A stretch of 64,000 bases of DNA from Planctomycetaceae bacterium. Its GTDB lineage: Bacteria > Planctomycetota > Planctomycetia > Pirellulales > Pirellulaceae. Shown one piece after another: positions 6,040-15,850 of the stretch (positions within the stretch are counted from its first letter, which is position 1; the number at the start of each line of letters is the position of its first letter). The notes under the pieces are model-generated. The model did not search any database and had not been told where the DNA came from. It saw only the letters and a program-made list of their open reading frames with translations. A program made the translations under genes and the position numbers. The stretch spans positions 1 through 64,000 of the forward strand of contig PBTE01000199.1 in the NCBI GenBank assembly GCA_002726515.1. The letters are read 5' to 3'.

Positions 6040-7200
6040 TCACCCGTTGTCACCAGCCTGGTAGAATCGTTTGGCAATTTGCTCGCTGTGAAACGGCAAC
6101 CATTCGGACTGGGTGTACACGGCGTGGCCGGCGAGGTGGTGATAAACAGGTTGGTCGGGTAACCCATAGTCGACTAACAGTGTGCGCCCCTCGTCGGCAA
6201 CCCGTAAACCCTGTCGGAGATGTTGCAGCAGGTGTCGGCGCTTTACACCCGGCTGAACCACCGCTGCCAAGCGTCGGTTGGCAAGCCAGGCGCGCCAACT
6301 CAGGCAATTCGGCTGTATATTGGTGCCGGCAATACCAACTTGTTGTACATAATCGCCTCCCTCCGCCTTGAGAACCTGGTCCAGTGTCGGAGGGAAATCC
6401 GCTTGAAATTCGGGCAGTCCGGCAGTGGGTCGGTGAAACACAAAGTGTAGAAGTCGGTTGTAACCGCACGTGTCCCACCCGTAACGGATAGGAGTGCCGA
6501 AATTGACGATATCAAATTGCGTGCTAAAGACCGGATGAGTTTTCGACTGAAGCAACTTTTTAGCGCGTAACCATTGGGCCGTGACATCAGCGGTCTGACC
6601 TCTTTCATAATAGCAGCGGGCCGCTCGGAAGAAGCGATCGCACACTTTTGGTTCGGCCCCTATCAAATTGGTCAACAGGGCAAACATGTTCCCGGCGTGG
6701 CTATGTCCCCAAAGTAGAATCCGCTGCCCTGTTTGGGTAACCCTCCCGGCCAGTTCAACCAACAAACGGACGGCCGCTTCGGCTCGTGCCAGATGATGGT
6801 TTTCCCCGGTCCAGGTGAAACGTCTGACGGGAACCGGGGGCAGGCCCTCGGATGAAACGGCGTTTGCAAGGTCCTGGGAAAATGCCTCGGTATAGTTGCC
6901 ATTTTCCCCGGCGATAGAATCGACCATCTGCTTTACTGATTTTTCCATCAATTCTTTGAAAGCTGGTTCCAGGGAGGAAAACTGGCGAACCAACCCCAAC
7001 CCGTCGTTTCCGGCGAACGTGCCATGGACCAGGTAGATTGCTGAAATCCTTGCCTCCTGCAGCCTGCGGCCCGCACATCTCATCCTTTCAACGAAGGCTT
7101 CGGTATCCGGGTGTGCGGGAGTACCGGGCACAACAAGTTCATATTCCGCTCTAGGTGGTGAACTGTAGATCTGATTCTGGAAATGATTGTGCTTCGGCAT
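6040..7200 (-). CDS. Predicted alpha/beta-hydrolase fold protein
   Basis: A 386-residue protein with two serine-hydrolase hallmarks. YLVHGTFAGND near residues 57-65 fits an oxyanion-hole loop, and LLWGHSHAG at 162-170 is a GxSxG nucleophile elbow with S167. A catalytic His may lie in the C-terminal HHLAGHAVY. The Asp partner cannot be picked by eye. There is no signal peptide or membrane segment, so it is probably cytoplasmic. It is the second gene of a pair, beginning 19 bp after the stop of the 626-residue unknown protein, so the two are probably co-transcribed and functionally linked. The family resembles lipases/esterases only at motif level. The substrate is unknown. Confidence 0.7.
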   Translation of the reverse strand: MPKHNHFQNQIYSSPPRAEYELVVPGTPAHPDTEAFVERMRCAGRRLQEARISAIYLVHGTFAGNDGLGLVRQFSSLEPAFKELMEKSVKQMVDSIAGENGNYTEAFSQDLANAVSSEGLPPVPVRRFTWTGENHHLARAEAAVRLLVELAGRVTQTGQRILLWGHSHAGNMFALLTNLIGAEPKVCDRFFRAARCYYERGQTADVTAQWLRAKKLLQSKTHPVFSTQFDIVNFGTPIRYGWDTCGYNRLLHFVFHRPTAGLPEFQADFPPTLDQVLKAEGGDYVQQVGIAGTNIQPNCLSWRAWLANRRLAAVVQPGVKRRHLLQHLRQGLRVADEGRTLLVDYGLPDQPVYHHLAGHAVYTQSEWLPFHSEQIAKRFYQAGDNG

Positions 7201-7219
7201 GAACAGGGCCTACAGGGGC

Positions 7220-9100
7220 TTAAGCCTTGCGGATGAAGTGTGCTGCATAACTACGAACTTGACGACCATTCAACACGTGCACCATCCGCAGCTGCTGGAT
7301 GGTCGATTCACTGAACTGACTCGAAGGCAGGTGAACCAATCGTTTTTGAAACCGACGTGCCAAACGCCGCCAACCAGCACCCGGCGGGTAGGGACTCAAA
7401 AGAGCGATCTGGCGGCAGCGGCTGTGAACCATGGCTGCAGCCAGCAATCGTTCTTCCAGGGTTTCCGTAAAGTCTAGTCTCGGGTCTGACCAGATGTCCG
7501 GGATCGAGAGGGGCGGAAATAAGAACATCGCTCCGCCGTAAGTTGCAAGACCAACCCCCGGCCCCACTAACTCCCGGCGAAAGTCGGTCGCAAAAAAGGC
7601 AAGTGTCGATTCCTGATCATGTTCGGCGTACCACGTACTGCGCCAGCGATAGTCACGAGGATCCGCCGGAGAATCAAAAAGCATCACCACGCAATCTAAA
7701 TCACCTCTTCCCGGAGGCTGTACTTTGACGTAGATATCTCCGCTGTGCCAGTTCCTGACTGTCTCGCGAATATCGATTCCATCCTTGACGCTCGTGGTGA
7801 ATTTCTCCGAACGGGCCAAATCGGCTCCCATCGCCGCTCGCGCCCGATCAAAGAGGTGGCAGCGAAATCCCTCAATGAGTTCGTCCTCGGGTGGCCAACT
7901 GCACTGGGAAAAAGGATTCCACTTCATGCGCCACTTGTCAGTTTCCTGTTTTTCCGAACGACGTTGCAGCTGGCAACTACGCCAGCTCACAGGCGGACCG
8001 GGCAGGCGGCTGACGAGGTGCACCAGATCTCCGTCTGGCAAACGGGCCTGATCCACACCCAGCGTCACTTCCTCAGAACCTGTTGACTGATGGTAGGGAT
8101 AATCTCGCGCCGTCTCGGCGACATGAACCGCATACTGGTCGCCCAGAATTTGTTTGCTGGCGATGATCATGGTGTAGAGATCGGGTGACATGCGTCCTTC
8201 CATCAGGGATAGATTGCGAATGTATTTGAGGCAGGTGGAAAGTGCGTGGGTAGTAACCTTTCGGGCTCGTCGACCCATTTCGGATCGGTAGCCGGATCGG
8301 GCGCTGATCAGCAGTTCTTTAACACCGTCAATCGATAAATTGTCGTCGCTTTCAAGTTCCGCCCGAGCTCGTTCGTAGAGTCCTGTAATGAACGGTAGTT
8401 CGCCGAGCATGAAGATCAGTGATTTTAATTCAGGCTGGTAGACTTGGGTCTTCTGCACTTCCTCATGTTCCACATGACTTGTTTCTCGATCCTGGTAGGC
8501 CTCACGCATCCAAGGCCAGTCTAAAGCCGAACAGACCAGGAGTATGGAACGATATTTCTCTTCCAGCTGACGCAAGCGGGTGGCCATGTGAACCACTCGA
8601 TCAGTTGGCTGGCCAATCGGTAAACGGCCGATACTCGGAAGTACGGCAGTCGCAAAACGTTCGAGTGATACGCGCTGCAAGGCATAGGGGTCTGGAAACA
8701 CGGCCGTGCAAGGCTCAAATTGTTCCGTCTCCAGATCGATGAAGCAGCGGTCAATGTGTTCGCCGATTGCAGTCCGGATGGCCGCAATAACCCCCTGACA
8801 AGGATCAACCGGAACATAGCTCAGGGTCCGTTTGTCGGAAACATTCTCGTTCCCGTCATCGGGCAACCAGGAACCGCCCCAATCCTGAATCGACTCGTCC
8901 TGTGTGACCATCATGGGCACGGGCAGGCAGGTGACTGCTTGCTCGACATCCGCTTGAAAAGAGGGGGGTAAAGGCACCGCGATGCAATCAAAAGTCTTCC
9001 CAAGCATCCAGCGTCGGACCTCCATTGCAAAATCGCCACTGCCGTGAATGATTGGCAACGCCGTTATCTGGTCGCTGAATTGGAGTACTTTAGATTGCAT
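7220..9100 (-). CDS. Large conserved-looking protein of unknown function
   Basis: I do not recognise this 626-residue protein. The N-terminus has LPIIHGSGDFAMEVRRWM (about 16-32), then FDCIAVPLPPSFQADVEQAV, YVPVDPCQGVIAAIR (about 95-109) and CFIDLETEQFEP (about 119-130). The alternation of beta strands and helices with HGSGD and DLE motifs faintly recalls TraB/ChaN-like or DUF5682-type domains, but this is a weak impression. A middle helical region (residues 200-330) and a C-terminal part rich in Trp and Arg (DPRDYRWRSTWYAEHD) follow. No signal peptide or membrane helix is seen. It lies 19 bp upstream of the hydrolase gene on the same strand, forming a two-gene unit. The ATG at 9100 lacks a strong ribosome-binding site, so the start is uncertain. 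Confidence 0.7.
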   Translation of the reverse strand: MQSKVLQFSDQITALPIIHGSGDFAMEVRRWMLGKTFDCIAVPLPPSFQADVEQAVTCLPVPMMVTQDESIQDWGGSWLPDDGNENVSDKRTLSYVPVDPCQGVIAAIRTAIGEHIDRCFIDLETEQFEPCTAVFPDPYALQRVSLERFATAVLPSIGRLPIGQPTDRVVHMATRLRQLEEKYRSILLVCSALDWPWMREAYQDRETSHVEHEEVQKTQVYQPELKSLIFMLGELPFITGLYERARAELESDDNLSIDGVKELLISARSGYRSEMGRRARKVTTHALSTCLKYIRNLSLMEGRMSPDLYTMIIASKQILGDQYAVHVAETARDYPYHQSTGSEEVTLGVDQARLPDGDLVHLVSRLPGPPVSWRSCQLQRRSEKQETDKWRMKWNPFSQCSWPPEDELIEGFRCHLFDRARAAMGADLARSEKFTTSVKDGIDIRETVRNWHSGDIYVKVQPPGRGDLDCVVMLFDSPADPRDYRWRSTWYAEHDQESTLAFFATDFRRELVGPGVGLATYGGAMFLFPPLSIPDIWSDPRLDFTETLEERLLAAAMVHSRCRQIALLSPYPPGAGWRRLARRFQKRLVHLPSSQFSESTIQQLRMVHVLNGRQVRSYAAHFIRKA

Positions 9101-12152: not shown

Positions 12153-13961
12153 CTAGCCCGTCAGGAATCGCCGGTAGAGCTCGCGGTAGGCGCCTTGTTT
12201 CGCAAGTAACCCGGTGTGGGTTCCACGTTCCACGATCTGGCCCCCGTCCAAAACCAGAATTTGATTTGCTTCCCGTATGGTGCTCAAACGATGAGCCACC
12301 ACGAAACTGGTTCTTCCCTTGAGCAACTGACGCAAAGCTTGCTGAATGTGCATTTCCGTCAACGTGTCGACACTGCTACTGGCTTCATCCAGAACCAAAA
12401 CCTTTGGATCTGTGAGAAGTGATCTGGCAAAACAAACCAGTTGCCGTTGCCCCAGTGACAAATTGCCGCCCCGTTCGCCAACCTGGGTTTGAAATCCGTC
12501 GGGCAACCGGAGAAACACGTCCATGCAATTCAGCTGTTCGACTGCGTCATGTACTTCCTGATCGCTCGCCCGGGGCCGACTAAAACGAATGTTCTCCATC
12601 ACCGTACCGGAAAAAAGAAAACTCTGTTGCACCATGATTCCAAGATGCTGTTGCCAGCTTTCTGTTTTCCACTCCAGCAGATCATGGTCATCCACCATGA
12701 CCACACCAGATGTCGGCAAGTAGAACTTGGCAACCAGATTCGTGACCGTTGTCTTGCCACTGCCCGTGTGTCCCACCAAAGCTACGGTTTGCCCCGGCTT
12801 GGCCACGAAGCTGATGTTCTGCAGTACTTGCGTTCCCGGAAGATATTCAAATGAAACGTTGCGAAATTCAACGCGCCCACACACACCTGGCACATCAATG
12901 GCTGTTGGTGGATCTTCCCAATCGGGCGGGGTGTCAAGCAACCCGAAAACGCGTTCGGCCGCGGCCATCGAGGTCAGGGCCTGGGTGTACAGCAGGCCCA
13001 ACATGGTCAGGGGGCTGAAAAACAGGCCTGCCATCAGGAAGAAACCGATCAGGTCGCCCAAGGAGGCGTCGATCGAAGGATTTAACACCCGAAATCCCCC
13101 CAGCAACAACAGAATCGCAATGAAAAAATGACTGTTCATGTCCAGCAGCGGCAGGAGTCGCCCGTGGATGCTGGCAATTTCGTAGTGATAACCTGCATGG
13201 TCTTCCGCCAAATCACGAAACAACTCTGCATTTCTTGCTTGCCTTCCATAGGCCTGGGTAGTGCGGATCCCATTGATCGACTCGGCCAGTGTGGCTGTCA
13301 CTCGACTAAACGATTCCTGTACGGCACGGTGTGCTTTGCTTAATTTGCGGCGAAAGTAGTAATTGATACCGGCCAGCACCGGCGCCAGCCCCAACACCAC
13401 CAGAAACAGCACCCAGTCGTACCACAACATAAATAAAGCGGCCATCAGCATCTGACCTGACTGGACCATGGCAATGAACATGACTTCCTGAACGCCCACC
13501 CGCACATTTTCCACATCGGAAGTCAAGCGACTGATGATGCGTCCCAACTTCGTACAGACATAGAACTTCATCTGCAGCCGCTGTAGATGGGCGAACAGTT
13601 CGTTCCGCAGATCGTGCACGACGCTTTCACCCAACTCGAGCGCCAAACGTTGTCGGAAATGCGCCACGATTTGAGTCGATACAGCCAGCGCCAAGAAACC
13701 CACGACAGCCCAGGCGACTCCCGCCTGATTGCCGGCCTGAATCGGGCCTTTGATGGCTGCTGCAATGGCTGCGGCGAGAGCCGGCAACTGGAGCGAGCGA
13801 ACAACAACAATCAACAGCAGCCAGGTTCGCCGGGCAGCGTAAGGGCGCGTGTAACGCAACAGGCGGTTGATGATTTGCCAATCCAGTGGGCGCTGGTGGA
13901 TTTCCCGTTCGTCTTTTGCCACCTGGGTGATGGTTGGGGCAACATTGCTCATACTATTCAA
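12153..13961 (-). CDS. ABC exporter half-transporter, subunit with catalytic Walker B
   Basis: A 602-residue fusion of a six-helix exporter membrane domain (about 40-330) and a nucleotide-binding domain. The latter has Walker A GHTGSGKTT, Q-loop MVQQSFLFSG, Walker B VLVLDEASSSVD with the catalytic Glu, and the H-loop AHRLSTI. Its signature is LSLGQRQ instead of LSGGQ. The start ATG overlaps the stop of the upstream partner gene by 4 bp (ATGA), showing translational coupling. The pattern of one degenerate signature here and one degenerate Walker B in the partner is what heterodimeric exporters such as TM287/288 and BmrCD show. The substrate may be a drug, lipid or peptide and is not determinable. 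Confidence 0.92.
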   Translation of the reverse strand: MNSMSNVAPTITQVAKDEREIHQRPLDWQIINRLLRYTRPYAARRTWLLLIVVVRSLQLPALAAAIAAAIKGPIQAGNQAGVAWAVVGFLALAVSTQIVAHFRQRLALELGESVVHDLRNELFAHLQRLQMKFYVCTKLGRIISRLTSDVENVRVGVQEVMFIAMVQSGQMLMAALFMLWYDWVLFLVVLGLAPVLAGINYYFRRKLSKAHRAVQESFSRVTATLAESINGIRTTQAYGRQARNAELFRDLAEDHAGYHYEIASIHGRLLPLLDMNSHFFIAILLLLGGFRVLNPSIDASLGDLIGFFLMAGLFFSPLTMLGLLYTQALTSMAAAERVFGLLDTPPDWEDPPTAIDVPGVCGRVEFRNVSFEYLPGTQVLQNISFVAKPGQTVALVGHTGSGKTTVTNLVAKFYLPTSGVVMVDDHDLLEWKTESWQQHLGIMVQQSFLFSGTVMENIRFSRPRASDQEVHDAVEQLNCMDVFLRLPDGFQTQVGERGGNLSLGQRQLVCFARSLLTDPKVLVLDEASSSVDTLTEMHIQQALRQLLKGRTSFVVAHRLSTIREANQILVLDGGQIVERGTHTGLLAKQGAYRELYRRFLTG

Positions 13962-15850
13962 TTCTGGAAAGCCAATCTTTTTTCGTCGAGCGGTCCATCG
14001 AGATCCTCCACCTGGGCTGACAACAAGGATCGCAGATACCCATCCTGATCAAGCAAATCTTCCGGAGGCCCAAATTGGGCGACCTGCCCATCCGATAGAA
14101 CCAGCACCAGGTCGGCTCGTCGGATAGCGCTCAGGCGATGCGTGACCAGAAACGTGGTGCGGTTACGCATGGCTTCATCCACTGCCTGCAGAATCTCATG
14201 CTCCGTTTCCGGGTCCACCGCGGCAGTTGGATCATCCAATAACAGGATGGGTGAATTCATCAACAGGGCCCGCGCAATCGCGATTCGTTGACGTTCTCCG
14301 CCAGAAAGATCGCAACCATGTTCTCCGATGATCGTGTCAAACCCGTCAGACAAACGGGTGATAAAAGGAGTGGCCGCAGCAAGCCTCGCCGCTTCAAACG
14401 TCTGCTGCCCGGTCGCCTGCGGATTTCCAAACGCGATGTTCGCAGTGACTGTATTGCTGAATAGAAAGCTCTCCTGAAAAACCATGCCCACATGACGCCG
14501 CAACTCATCAAGGTGCAGTTCACGGATATCCGTGCCATCGATCAGCACTCGTCCCCCCGTGGGATCATACAGACGGGGAATCAAATTTAGCAGCGTACTC
14601 TTCCCTGACCCGGTAGGCCCGACAATCGAAACAGATTGGCCCGGCTCGATAGAAAAATCGATTCCTTCCAAGACAGGCCGGTCTTGATTGTAAGCAAACG
14701 ACACCCCTTCGAACGTGACCGACCCGCAACTGCAATTCAAGTGTCGAGACTGTGCCGGTGAACGAATCTCAACCGGAGCATCTAAAACTTGAAAGACGCG
14801 CTCGGCACCCGCCAAACTGGTCTGTATCCGGTTGGCAATGTTGGTGACCTGCCCGACTTGCTCGGAGAATTGCTGTAACAGTCGTGCAAAAGCGACCAGC
14901 CCCACGCCCAGGGGAAGTTGGCCCCGAGCCACCAAGTACCCTCCAAATCCCAACAGTACAGCACGATTCAAATGGGTCAGCATTCCCATTGTCGGTTGAA
15001 ACATGGAAATCCGCCAGAAAATCTCATGCTGCTGCTCCCGGACGTGGTTGTTCGAATGTCGGAACTTTTCAATCTGGGATTTCTGTTGGGCACATCCTTT
15101 GACCACTGCCACGCCCTGAACATTTTCCACGACGTCTCGCACCATCTGATCCATCCGTTCCCTCGTTTCCAAGTACATCGGACGGATCATTCGCGAAAAA
15201 CGAATGGCGAGTGTCCACAAAAGTGGGGTCGTTGCCAGACAGGCGAAGGTCAACATGACGTGAATGCTGGCCATATACGCCGTGAAGATAACCAGAGACA
15301 AAAACACGATGATCATTTCGACCATCACGCCATCGACGAAGGTGCGCACAGCGTAAACATCTCCGGCCACGCGATTGATGAGAGAACTACTGTTGTGCCG
15401 GTCAAAGTAAGAGAAACCCAACCATTGGAGTTTTTCAAAAACGCGCACTCGCAAATCGACAATGATGGTCTGCGCCAAACGAGAAGCCGATAAAGTCGCC
15501 CACAGGCGCAGGGCGGCGTGTAGTATTGCGAGTCCTAACACGGCAGTCGCAATCGTTGCCAGGATGGCCATATCGCTCAATGATGCGGGTGGGTGAATGC
15601 CGAACAGCCAAGTCGGCTCGTTGGCCGCGGGATCCAGACGAAATCGAATGAAGTCGATTCCTATTCCGCTGAAACCGAGGATGGCCAGACCGATTCCAAC
15701 GAGTAGCAACTGCTGCACCAGTACCAACAGGCAGCGGGAGCGGTATTCCCACACGAGTCCCAACAGGCGCCGCATCAGGAGCCGTGTCGAGGTGGATTCA
15801 GAATGACGGCAACCGTCATCTGCAGTGTTAGGTGAGCTCGGCGTGGACAA
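13958..15850 (-). CDS. ABC exporter half-transporter, subunit with degenerate Walker B
   Basis: A 630-residue exporter half-transporter. It has an N-terminal cytoplasmic segment, six predicted membrane helices (about 40-340) and a nucleotide-binding domain. Walker A is GPTGSGKST and the signature is a normal LSGGERQR. The Walker B is ILLLDDPTAAVD, with Asp in place of the catalytic Glu. The H-loop THRLSAI is intact. The Asp marks the non-hydrolysing half of an asymmetric pair, completed by the downstream gene that overlaps it by 4 bp. The start is uncertain: the longest frame begins with TTG at 15850, and an ATG exists at 15775. A 26-bp hairpin lies just upstream. Confidence 0.92.
   Translation of the reverse strand: MSTPSSPNTADDGCRHSESTSTRLLMRRLLGLVWEYRSRCLLVLVQQLLLVGIGLAILGFSGIGIDFIRFRLDPAANEPTWLFGIHPPASLSDMAILATIATAVLGLAILHAALRLWATLSASRLAQTIIVDLRVRVFEKLQWLGFSYFDRHNSSSLINRVAGDVYAVRTFVDGVMVEMIIVFLSLVIFTAYMASIHVMLTFACLATTPLLWTLAIRFSRMIRPMYLETRERMDQMVRDVVENVQGVAVVKGCAQQKSQIEKFRHSNNHVREQQHEIFWRISMFQPTMGMLTHLNRAVLLGFGGYLVARGQLPLGVGLVAFARLLQQFSEQVGQVTNIANRIQTSLAGAERVFQVLDAPVEIRSPAQSRHLNCSCGSVTFEGVSFAYNQDRPVLEGIDFSIEPGQSVSIVGPTGSGKSTLLNLIPRLYDPTGGRVLIDGTDIRELHLDELRRHVGMVFQESFLFSNTVTANIAFGNPQATGQQTFEAARLAAATPFITRLSDGFDTIIGEHGCDLSGGERQRIAIARALLMNSPILLLDDPTAAVDPETEHEILQAVDEAMRNRTTFLVTHRLSAIRRADLVLVLSDGQVAQFGPPEDLLDQDGYLRSLLSAQVEDLDGPLDEKRLAFQN

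Follow-up and report, generated by a model that had tools for sequence, protein, structure and literature searches.

A YehM/DUF5682-like planctomycete protein is inherited together with a MoxR-type AAA+ ATPase and is probably its dedicated partner

MoxR ATPases are described as chaperone-like AAA+ proteins that are usually paired with proteins carrying a von Willebrand factor A (vWA) domain, and their subfamilies include CGN (CbbQ/GvpN/NorQ) and YehL (PMC7159879, PMC3893208). In E. coli K-12 the gene order is yehL (MoxR ATPase), yehM, yehP (vWA) and yehQ (SWIM). The TIKI superfamily, to which ChaN, HopBA1, 3B55 and 2EBF are assigned by name, is described as depending on a His-Glu pair that is essential in its active members, one member lacking the motif (PMC6254334). 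The protein analysed here is encoded in a 64,000-nt stretch from a Planctomycetaceae bacterium (GCA_002726515.1, contig PBTE01000199.1, positions 1-64,000, forward strand), hereafter the window. It is 626 residues long and is probably the dedicated partner of a MoxR-type ATPase, with which it would form a two-protein AAA+ remodelling machine of the YehL-YehM type without the usual vWA component.

Concerning the genomic context, the 626 family is present in 59 of 392 genomes of the phylum, and clustering of neighbouring genes revealed a single recurrent one, located directly upstream of the 626 gene on the same strand, which encodes a MoxR-type AAA+ ATPase. This ATPase was found in 61 of the 392 genomes (search at E 1e-30), including all 59 that carry the 626 family (Fisher p 2.5e-68, uncorrected for phylogeny, the species not being independent). 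The two genes lie within 5 kb of each other in 28 of the 59 genomes, always on the same strand and with the ATPase upstream, and are apart in the other 31, either separated by more than 200 kb or placed on different contigs, so the co-occurrence is not just a consequence of linkage. Among GTDB contigs, the ATPase is upstream on the same strand in 28 of 80 loci and on the opposite strand in one more. Both families are absent from the sampled genomes of g2 and g3, which are other genera in the family of the window genome, and likewise from those of two sister families, f2 and f3. No third conserved neighbour was found beside the ATPase or the 626 gene, the remaining clusters being confined to close relatives or consisting of antisense open reading frames (ORFs); in this survey the ORF caller missed the 626 gene in six of 39 loci, and 102 of 110 loci gave a 626 ORF. 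These results showed that the two genes are inherited together and that the order is ATPase then 626 where they are adjacent, which points to the ATPase as the conserved partner of the 626 protein. An earlier examination of the letters and ORFs without database searches (the sequence-only reading) had proposed an undescribed system made of the 626 protein and the hydrolase encoded beside it in the window. The 626 protein does belong to an undescribed two-protein system, and its conserved partner is the MoxR-type ATPase, not the hydrolase.

The assignment of the ATPase was tested on a relative (locus L064), which scored 70 bits against AAA_5 (cut-off 22) and 30.2 against AAA_3 (cut-off 27). Among solved structures (PDB), those closest to the ATPase in sequence are Midasin, CbbQ and NorQ. 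In a tree of 17 partner ATPases, 15 YehL-type proteins and one MRP row, whose branch is very long, the partner ATPases formed their own clade apart from YehL, with supports of 97/95 and 100/98; the ATPase alignment held 30 of 48 non-redundant rows. A blastp search with YehL gave no match to the partner ATPases at 1e-4.

The sequence-only reading had assigned the 626 protein to no recognised family, and the searches agree with it: neither this protein nor the adjacent 386-residue one has a meaningful Pfam, NCBIfam or PADLOC match, and the 626 protein has no PDB relative by sequence. Judging by their relatives, both are genuine protein families and not chance ORFs, since full-length relatives of the 626 protein share 33-65% identity with the window protein (79-row alignment) and the hydrolase has relatives at 27-48% (16-row alignment). 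The larger alignment started from 149 sequences, five of which were skipped as cut or interrupted; an 80% identity threshold left 89 of the other 144, and 79 of the 89 were aligned. The arrangement described earlier was also found as reported, with two adjacent co-directional ORFs separated by 19 bp (7201-7219 in the ORF list), the motifs HGSGDF (residues 19-24), PVDPCQ (97-102) and DLETEQFEP (122-130) in the larger protein and GHSHAG (165-170) in the smaller one.

A remote relationship of the 626 protein emerged from profile comparison. When its profile was aligned by hhalign with 20 planctomycete DUF5682 proteins, the probability was 96.3% (E 1.8e-9) up to about residue 398, versus 0.2% for YehP-type vWA proteins and 1.0% for the hydrolase as controls. 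On the template side the match extends to column 459 of 768, and the residues of the 626 protein after about 400 have no counterpart. Profile alignment thus showed that the 626 protein is, in its N-terminal half, a distant sequence relative of DUF5682, the family of E. coli YehM. The Pfam model of this family (PF18934) does not match the window protein above the gathering score; a weak match appears in two of the 79 relatives (best E 0.0082), and a homologue from Neochlamydia scores 13.2 bits vs 26. The DUF5682 search gave a match in E. coli, and blastp with YehM hits the planctomycete DUF5682 proteins.

All 20 planctomycete DUF5682 loci examined hold YehL-, YehM- and YehP-like ORFs together, in some cases with YehM and YehP fused. 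DUF5682 (YehM)-VWA_CoxE (YehP) fusions of about 1,180-1,200 residues were observed at L256:11885-15424 (-) and L262:6824-10423 (-), and L264 looks similar. Such gene fusion supports a physical YehM-YehP complex. The ATPase-626 arrangement is like that of E. coli in that a MoxR-type ATPase gene is followed by a gene of a remote YehM-like family. It differs in that the ATPase belongs to a separate clade, no vWA (YehP) or SWIM (YehQ) gene is a neighbour, and the C-terminal domain of the 626 protein is not that of YehM, the match stopping at about residue 398 of 626. The literature search gave, among the matches listed, no description of the ATPase-626 pair, of DUF5682 or of yehLMPQ, and the arrangement is an undescribed, strictly co-inherited variant of the MoxR-plus-YehM-like kind.

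The pair is also found outside the Planctomycetota. Plasmid pS13 of Neochlamydia sp. S13 (L274:8102-10815) carries both genes in the order ATPase then 626 with 5 bp between them, the first annotated as 'AAA family ATPase' (55.6% identity, with 76% of the query aligned) and the second as a 617-residue 'hypothetical protein' that shares 28.5% identity with the window protein across 98% of its length. Two GTDB contigs that carry the pair bear the labels Nitrospinota (L121) and Nitrospirae (L125), which could be due to horizontal transfer or to mislabelled bins.

Regarding the vWA component, the 626 partner shares a MoxR-type ATPase with the described AAA+/vWA pairs NorQ-NorD, RavA-ViaA and CbbQ, and differs from them in having no detectable vWA domain: hhalign against 16 YehP-type proteins gave 0.2%, no support for a vWA hidden in the C-terminal part, and the Pfam scan of the 79 members found no vWA, although the list of fold matches for the C-terminal part leaves room for one. 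No YehP match at 1e-4 was obtained in 20 loci around the partner ATPase. It could be argued that the pair belongs to a usual MoxR system of the YehL-YehM type, with a vWA protein that goes unrecognised at another site in the genome, given that the planctomycete DUF5682 relatives lie in YehL-YehM-YehP operons or as YehM-YehP fusions, that generic vWA matches occur in most of the surveyed genomes, and that MoxR ATPases are reported to work usually with vWA proteins (PMC7159879, PMC3893208). This explanation is considered unlikely because no vWA gene recurs beside either the 626 gene or the ATPase gene, the ATPase is outside the YehL clade, and no VWA_CoxE match in the window genome passes the cut-off. 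Of the 59 genomes that carry the 626 family, 31 were surveyed for VWA_CoxE, and 30 of these have no full-length match; the only one that does (G181, 191 bits, the next best being 43.5) has its own YehM-YehP fusion.

A separate MoxR-like ATPase of 351 residues is encoded elsewhere in the window genome (L269, G000:C160), overlapping a vWA-like protein of 364 residues that is presumably DUF58-like. These two are probably a standard MoxR pair.

The structure of the 626 protein was predicted by AlphaFold2 with a predicted local distance difference test score (pLDDT) of 90.1 and a predicted template modelling score (pTM) of 0.81. For residues 2-207, the best match by VIA-align was the Tetrahymena complex IV subunit 8b6h_DQ (Z 10.7, root-mean-square deviation (rmsd) 4.7, 175 residues), followed by ChaN 2g5g (Z 8.3, rmsd 5.2, 153 residues), HopBA1 5t09 (Z 7.5, rmsd 4.3, 149 residues), 2qgm (Z 6.9, rmsd 4.2, 152 residues) and 3b55 (Z 6.3, rmsd 4.4, 147 residues). 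A weak TraB match was present in four of the 79 members (best 2.8e-4). In the predicted model, residues 1-207 have the parallel beta-sheet core fold of the TIKI/TraB/ChaN/EreA superfamily, and the enzyme-like core that had been suspected from the motifs is borne out. The proposed search for a characterised family gave no clear match for the protein, either by Foldseek at E 0.001 or in Pfam. The helical residues 256-333 tentatively resemble an AAA+ lid, the first match being the Mg-chelatase ATPase subunit 6l8d (Z 8.3, rmsd 2.1, 70 residues), with dynein and MCM lower. Comparison of the ATPase family with DUF5682 by hhalign gave 0.4%, its best stretch, a weak one, pairing the helices after the ATPase core with the matching DUF5682 part. 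The coordinates are displayed in Table 1.

Table 1. Coordinates of the genes and protein regions considered in this work
Feature	Position	Strand	Basis or remark
626-residue protein, YehM/DUF5682-like partner of MoxR-type AAA+ ATPase	7220..9100	-	ATG-start ORF
Residues 1-207, TIKI/TraB/ChaN/EreA-like domain (predicted)	8480..9100	-	VIA-align
Residues 256-333, helical, AAA+ C-terminal lid-like (tentative)	8102..8335	-	VIA-align
Residues 383-626, C-terminal part, most conserved region	7223..7954	-	Column identity, AlphaFold2
Residues 432-449, conserved flexible loop, candidate functional site	7754..7807	-	Invariant columns, low pLDDT 437-444
Partner ATPase of the window genome, on another contig	G000:C90:6126-7070		Outside window
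386-residue alpha/beta-hydrolase-like protein; neighbour here, not conserved partner	6040..7200	-	ATG-start ORF

Conservation is higher towards the C-terminus, with a mean column identity of 0.68 for residues 383-626 vs 0.55 for residues 1-207, and 63 of the 244 columns of the former reach at least 90% identity. In the loop 432-449, S437, D440, G441 and T447 are invariant in all 79 rows and the same four are found in the Neochlamydia homologue, as is also the case for E493, E497, S498, G513, P514, G522 and G523. Predicted alone, this part had a pLDDT of 85.8. Foldseek gave no confident relative for it (best E 0.05), and the best VIA match was the PepQ N-terminal domain (Z 5.4), ahead of integrase and Argonaute chains with Z below 5.

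The N-terminal domain shares with the TIKI/TraB/ChaN/EreA proteins its predicted fold and, in deep-branching relatives, the positions of a His, a Glu and a second His. It differs in that neither the Glu nor the second His is present in the window's clade, and the 626 protein has additional lid-like and C-terminal domains and an AAA+ motor as partner. Of the 79 rows, 19 have E and 56 have P at position 43, whereas at position 194 there are 19 with H, 48 with D and 11 with E; E43 and H194 occur together in 18 rows. The window protein keeps H19 but has P43 and D194 at the other two positions. All three residues (H19, E43, H194) are present in the Neochlamydia protein, and DUF5682 has an invariant H13, E37 and H242. 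On a tree built without columns 43 and 194, a single change on a branch with support 100 accounts for E43, and three changes are required for H194. The simplest reading of these residues is that an ancestral His-Glu-His site was lost in the window's clade, a direction suggested by its presence in the Neochlamydia row and in DUF5682. Superfamily-type hydrolysis by the window protein seems unlikely because of P43 and D194, despite H19.

These residues also bear on the idea that the 626 protein is itself an active hydrolase of the TIKI/EreA type that the ATPase only matures. The TIKI-like fold and the complete site in 18 of the rows and in Neochlamydia would fit it. It is nevertheless improbable, since the window protein has P43 and D194, and the difference at E43 falls on one well-supported branch, yet the C-terminal domain of that clade stays highly conserved.

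For the reading of the 626 protein as the dedicated partner of the ATPase, computation supports the pairing and the homology, and the rest (a ring, docking on it, binding of a client and lost catalysis) is what we infer along the following lines. The ATPase would form a ring, as in known MoxR proteins, which are hexameric, and the 626 protein would dock on it, possibly via the lid-like helical domain. The conserved C-terminal domain, the likeliest client site, would present the client, and ATP hydrolysis by the ring would remodel this client or the complex. Where deep-branching relatives keep His-Glu-His, their TIKI-like domain at the N-terminus may be a hydrolase that the motor switches or loads. 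Because the Glu and the second His are lost in the window's clade, there this domain is most likely a binding or structural module. Given that the usual vWA co-chaperone was not found, the 626 protein itself probably takes the role of adaptor. It is possible, as a more tentative extension, that a vWA-independent MoxR machine exists in Planctomycetota and on at least one Chlamydiota plasmid, in which a single co-chaperone combines a TIKI fold with lid-like docking and new C-terminal client-binding domains, and that in the window's clade a motor-coupled hydrolase has turned into a catalytically dead adaptor with its C-terminal site under the strongest constraint.

Some observations do not favour this dedicated partnership and should be considered. 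Genome G152, which is 99% complete, has the ATPase (L243, G152:C1:213899-214858) and lacks the 626 family even by profile, which means that the ATPase can exist without the 626 protein; this is either a loss in progress or an ATPase working with another partner. The second genome with the ATPase and without the 626 family, G006, is 66% complete. An unlinked vWA partner is conceivable since a VWA_CoxE match is present in 28 of the 31 surveyed genomes and is above the cut-off in 20 of them. As for the structure, Foldseek alone found nothing for the model at E 0.001, the fold assignment is based on VIA Z values of 6-11 together with sequence motifs, and the Z of 8.3 of the lid-like region is below about 13, the level that VIA-align trusts for helical domains.

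Another explanation is a conflict or defence function, as in the MoxR-vWA ternary systems of multicellular bacteria, which according to Kaur et al. 2020 (PMC7159879) are carried by planctomycetes and likewise join a MoxR ATPase to an extra dedicated protein. The location of the Neochlamydia copy on a plasmid would be consistent with it. However, the ATPase-626 pair differs from the ternary systems in that no vWA and no effector cassette were found and its sequences are strongly conserved; recurrent effector neighbours are missing, and the 626 protein, the hydrolase and the ATPase have no PADLOC match, so such a function is very improbable. No 626 relative was found among 151 pattern hits on viral contigs, and phage records gave no match, an absence that says little for or against defence.

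The hydrolase was rejected as a partner of the 626 protein, since it is absent from the 148 other loci and far from the 626 gene in the six other genomes with both. The hydrolase family occurs in 17 of the 392 genomes, six of the 17 belonging to one family (f46), and its co-occurrence with the 626 family is mild, with the hydrolase in seven of the 59 genomes that carry the latter vs ten of the 333 others (Fisher p 0.007, uncorrected). The sequence-only reading had suggested a joint pathway if the pairing were fixed, which is now hardly credible: the 19 bp spacing on the same strand in the window and this mild co-occurrence speak for it, but 52 of the 59 genomes with the 626 family have no hydrolase, none of the 148 other loci with a 626 relative, which are of partly shared origin and in some cases truncated at the end of a contig, contains it, and the genes are apart in all six other genomes with both, on different contigs in G353, G315, G344, G005 and G071 and 2.8 Mb from each other in G307. 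With the pair scattered in relatives, a 626-hydrolase system falls. Regarding the hydrolase itself, S167, H168 and H359 are invariant in the 16 rows, no Pfam match was obtained for any of these members at E 0.01, and the only PDB match, a weak one, is a putative lipase (E 0.06). We take it to be an alpha/beta-hydrolase by its motif only.

Elsewhere in the window, two adjacent ORFs of 602 and 630 residues (12153-15850, -) resemble ABC (ATP-binding cassette) exporters and overlap by a few bases. They look like a heterodimeric transporter.

MoxR ATPases are widespread chaperones for which few clients have been identified, and they are generally described as acting together with a vWA protein. A strictly co-inherited, TIKI-like MoxR partner without a recognised vWA domain would offer a simple two-protein system in which to study how these motors recognise their clients. 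Furthermore, the uncharacterised E. coli YehM is suggested to be a member of the TIKI/EreA superfamily, and this would give testable active-site residues in YehM.

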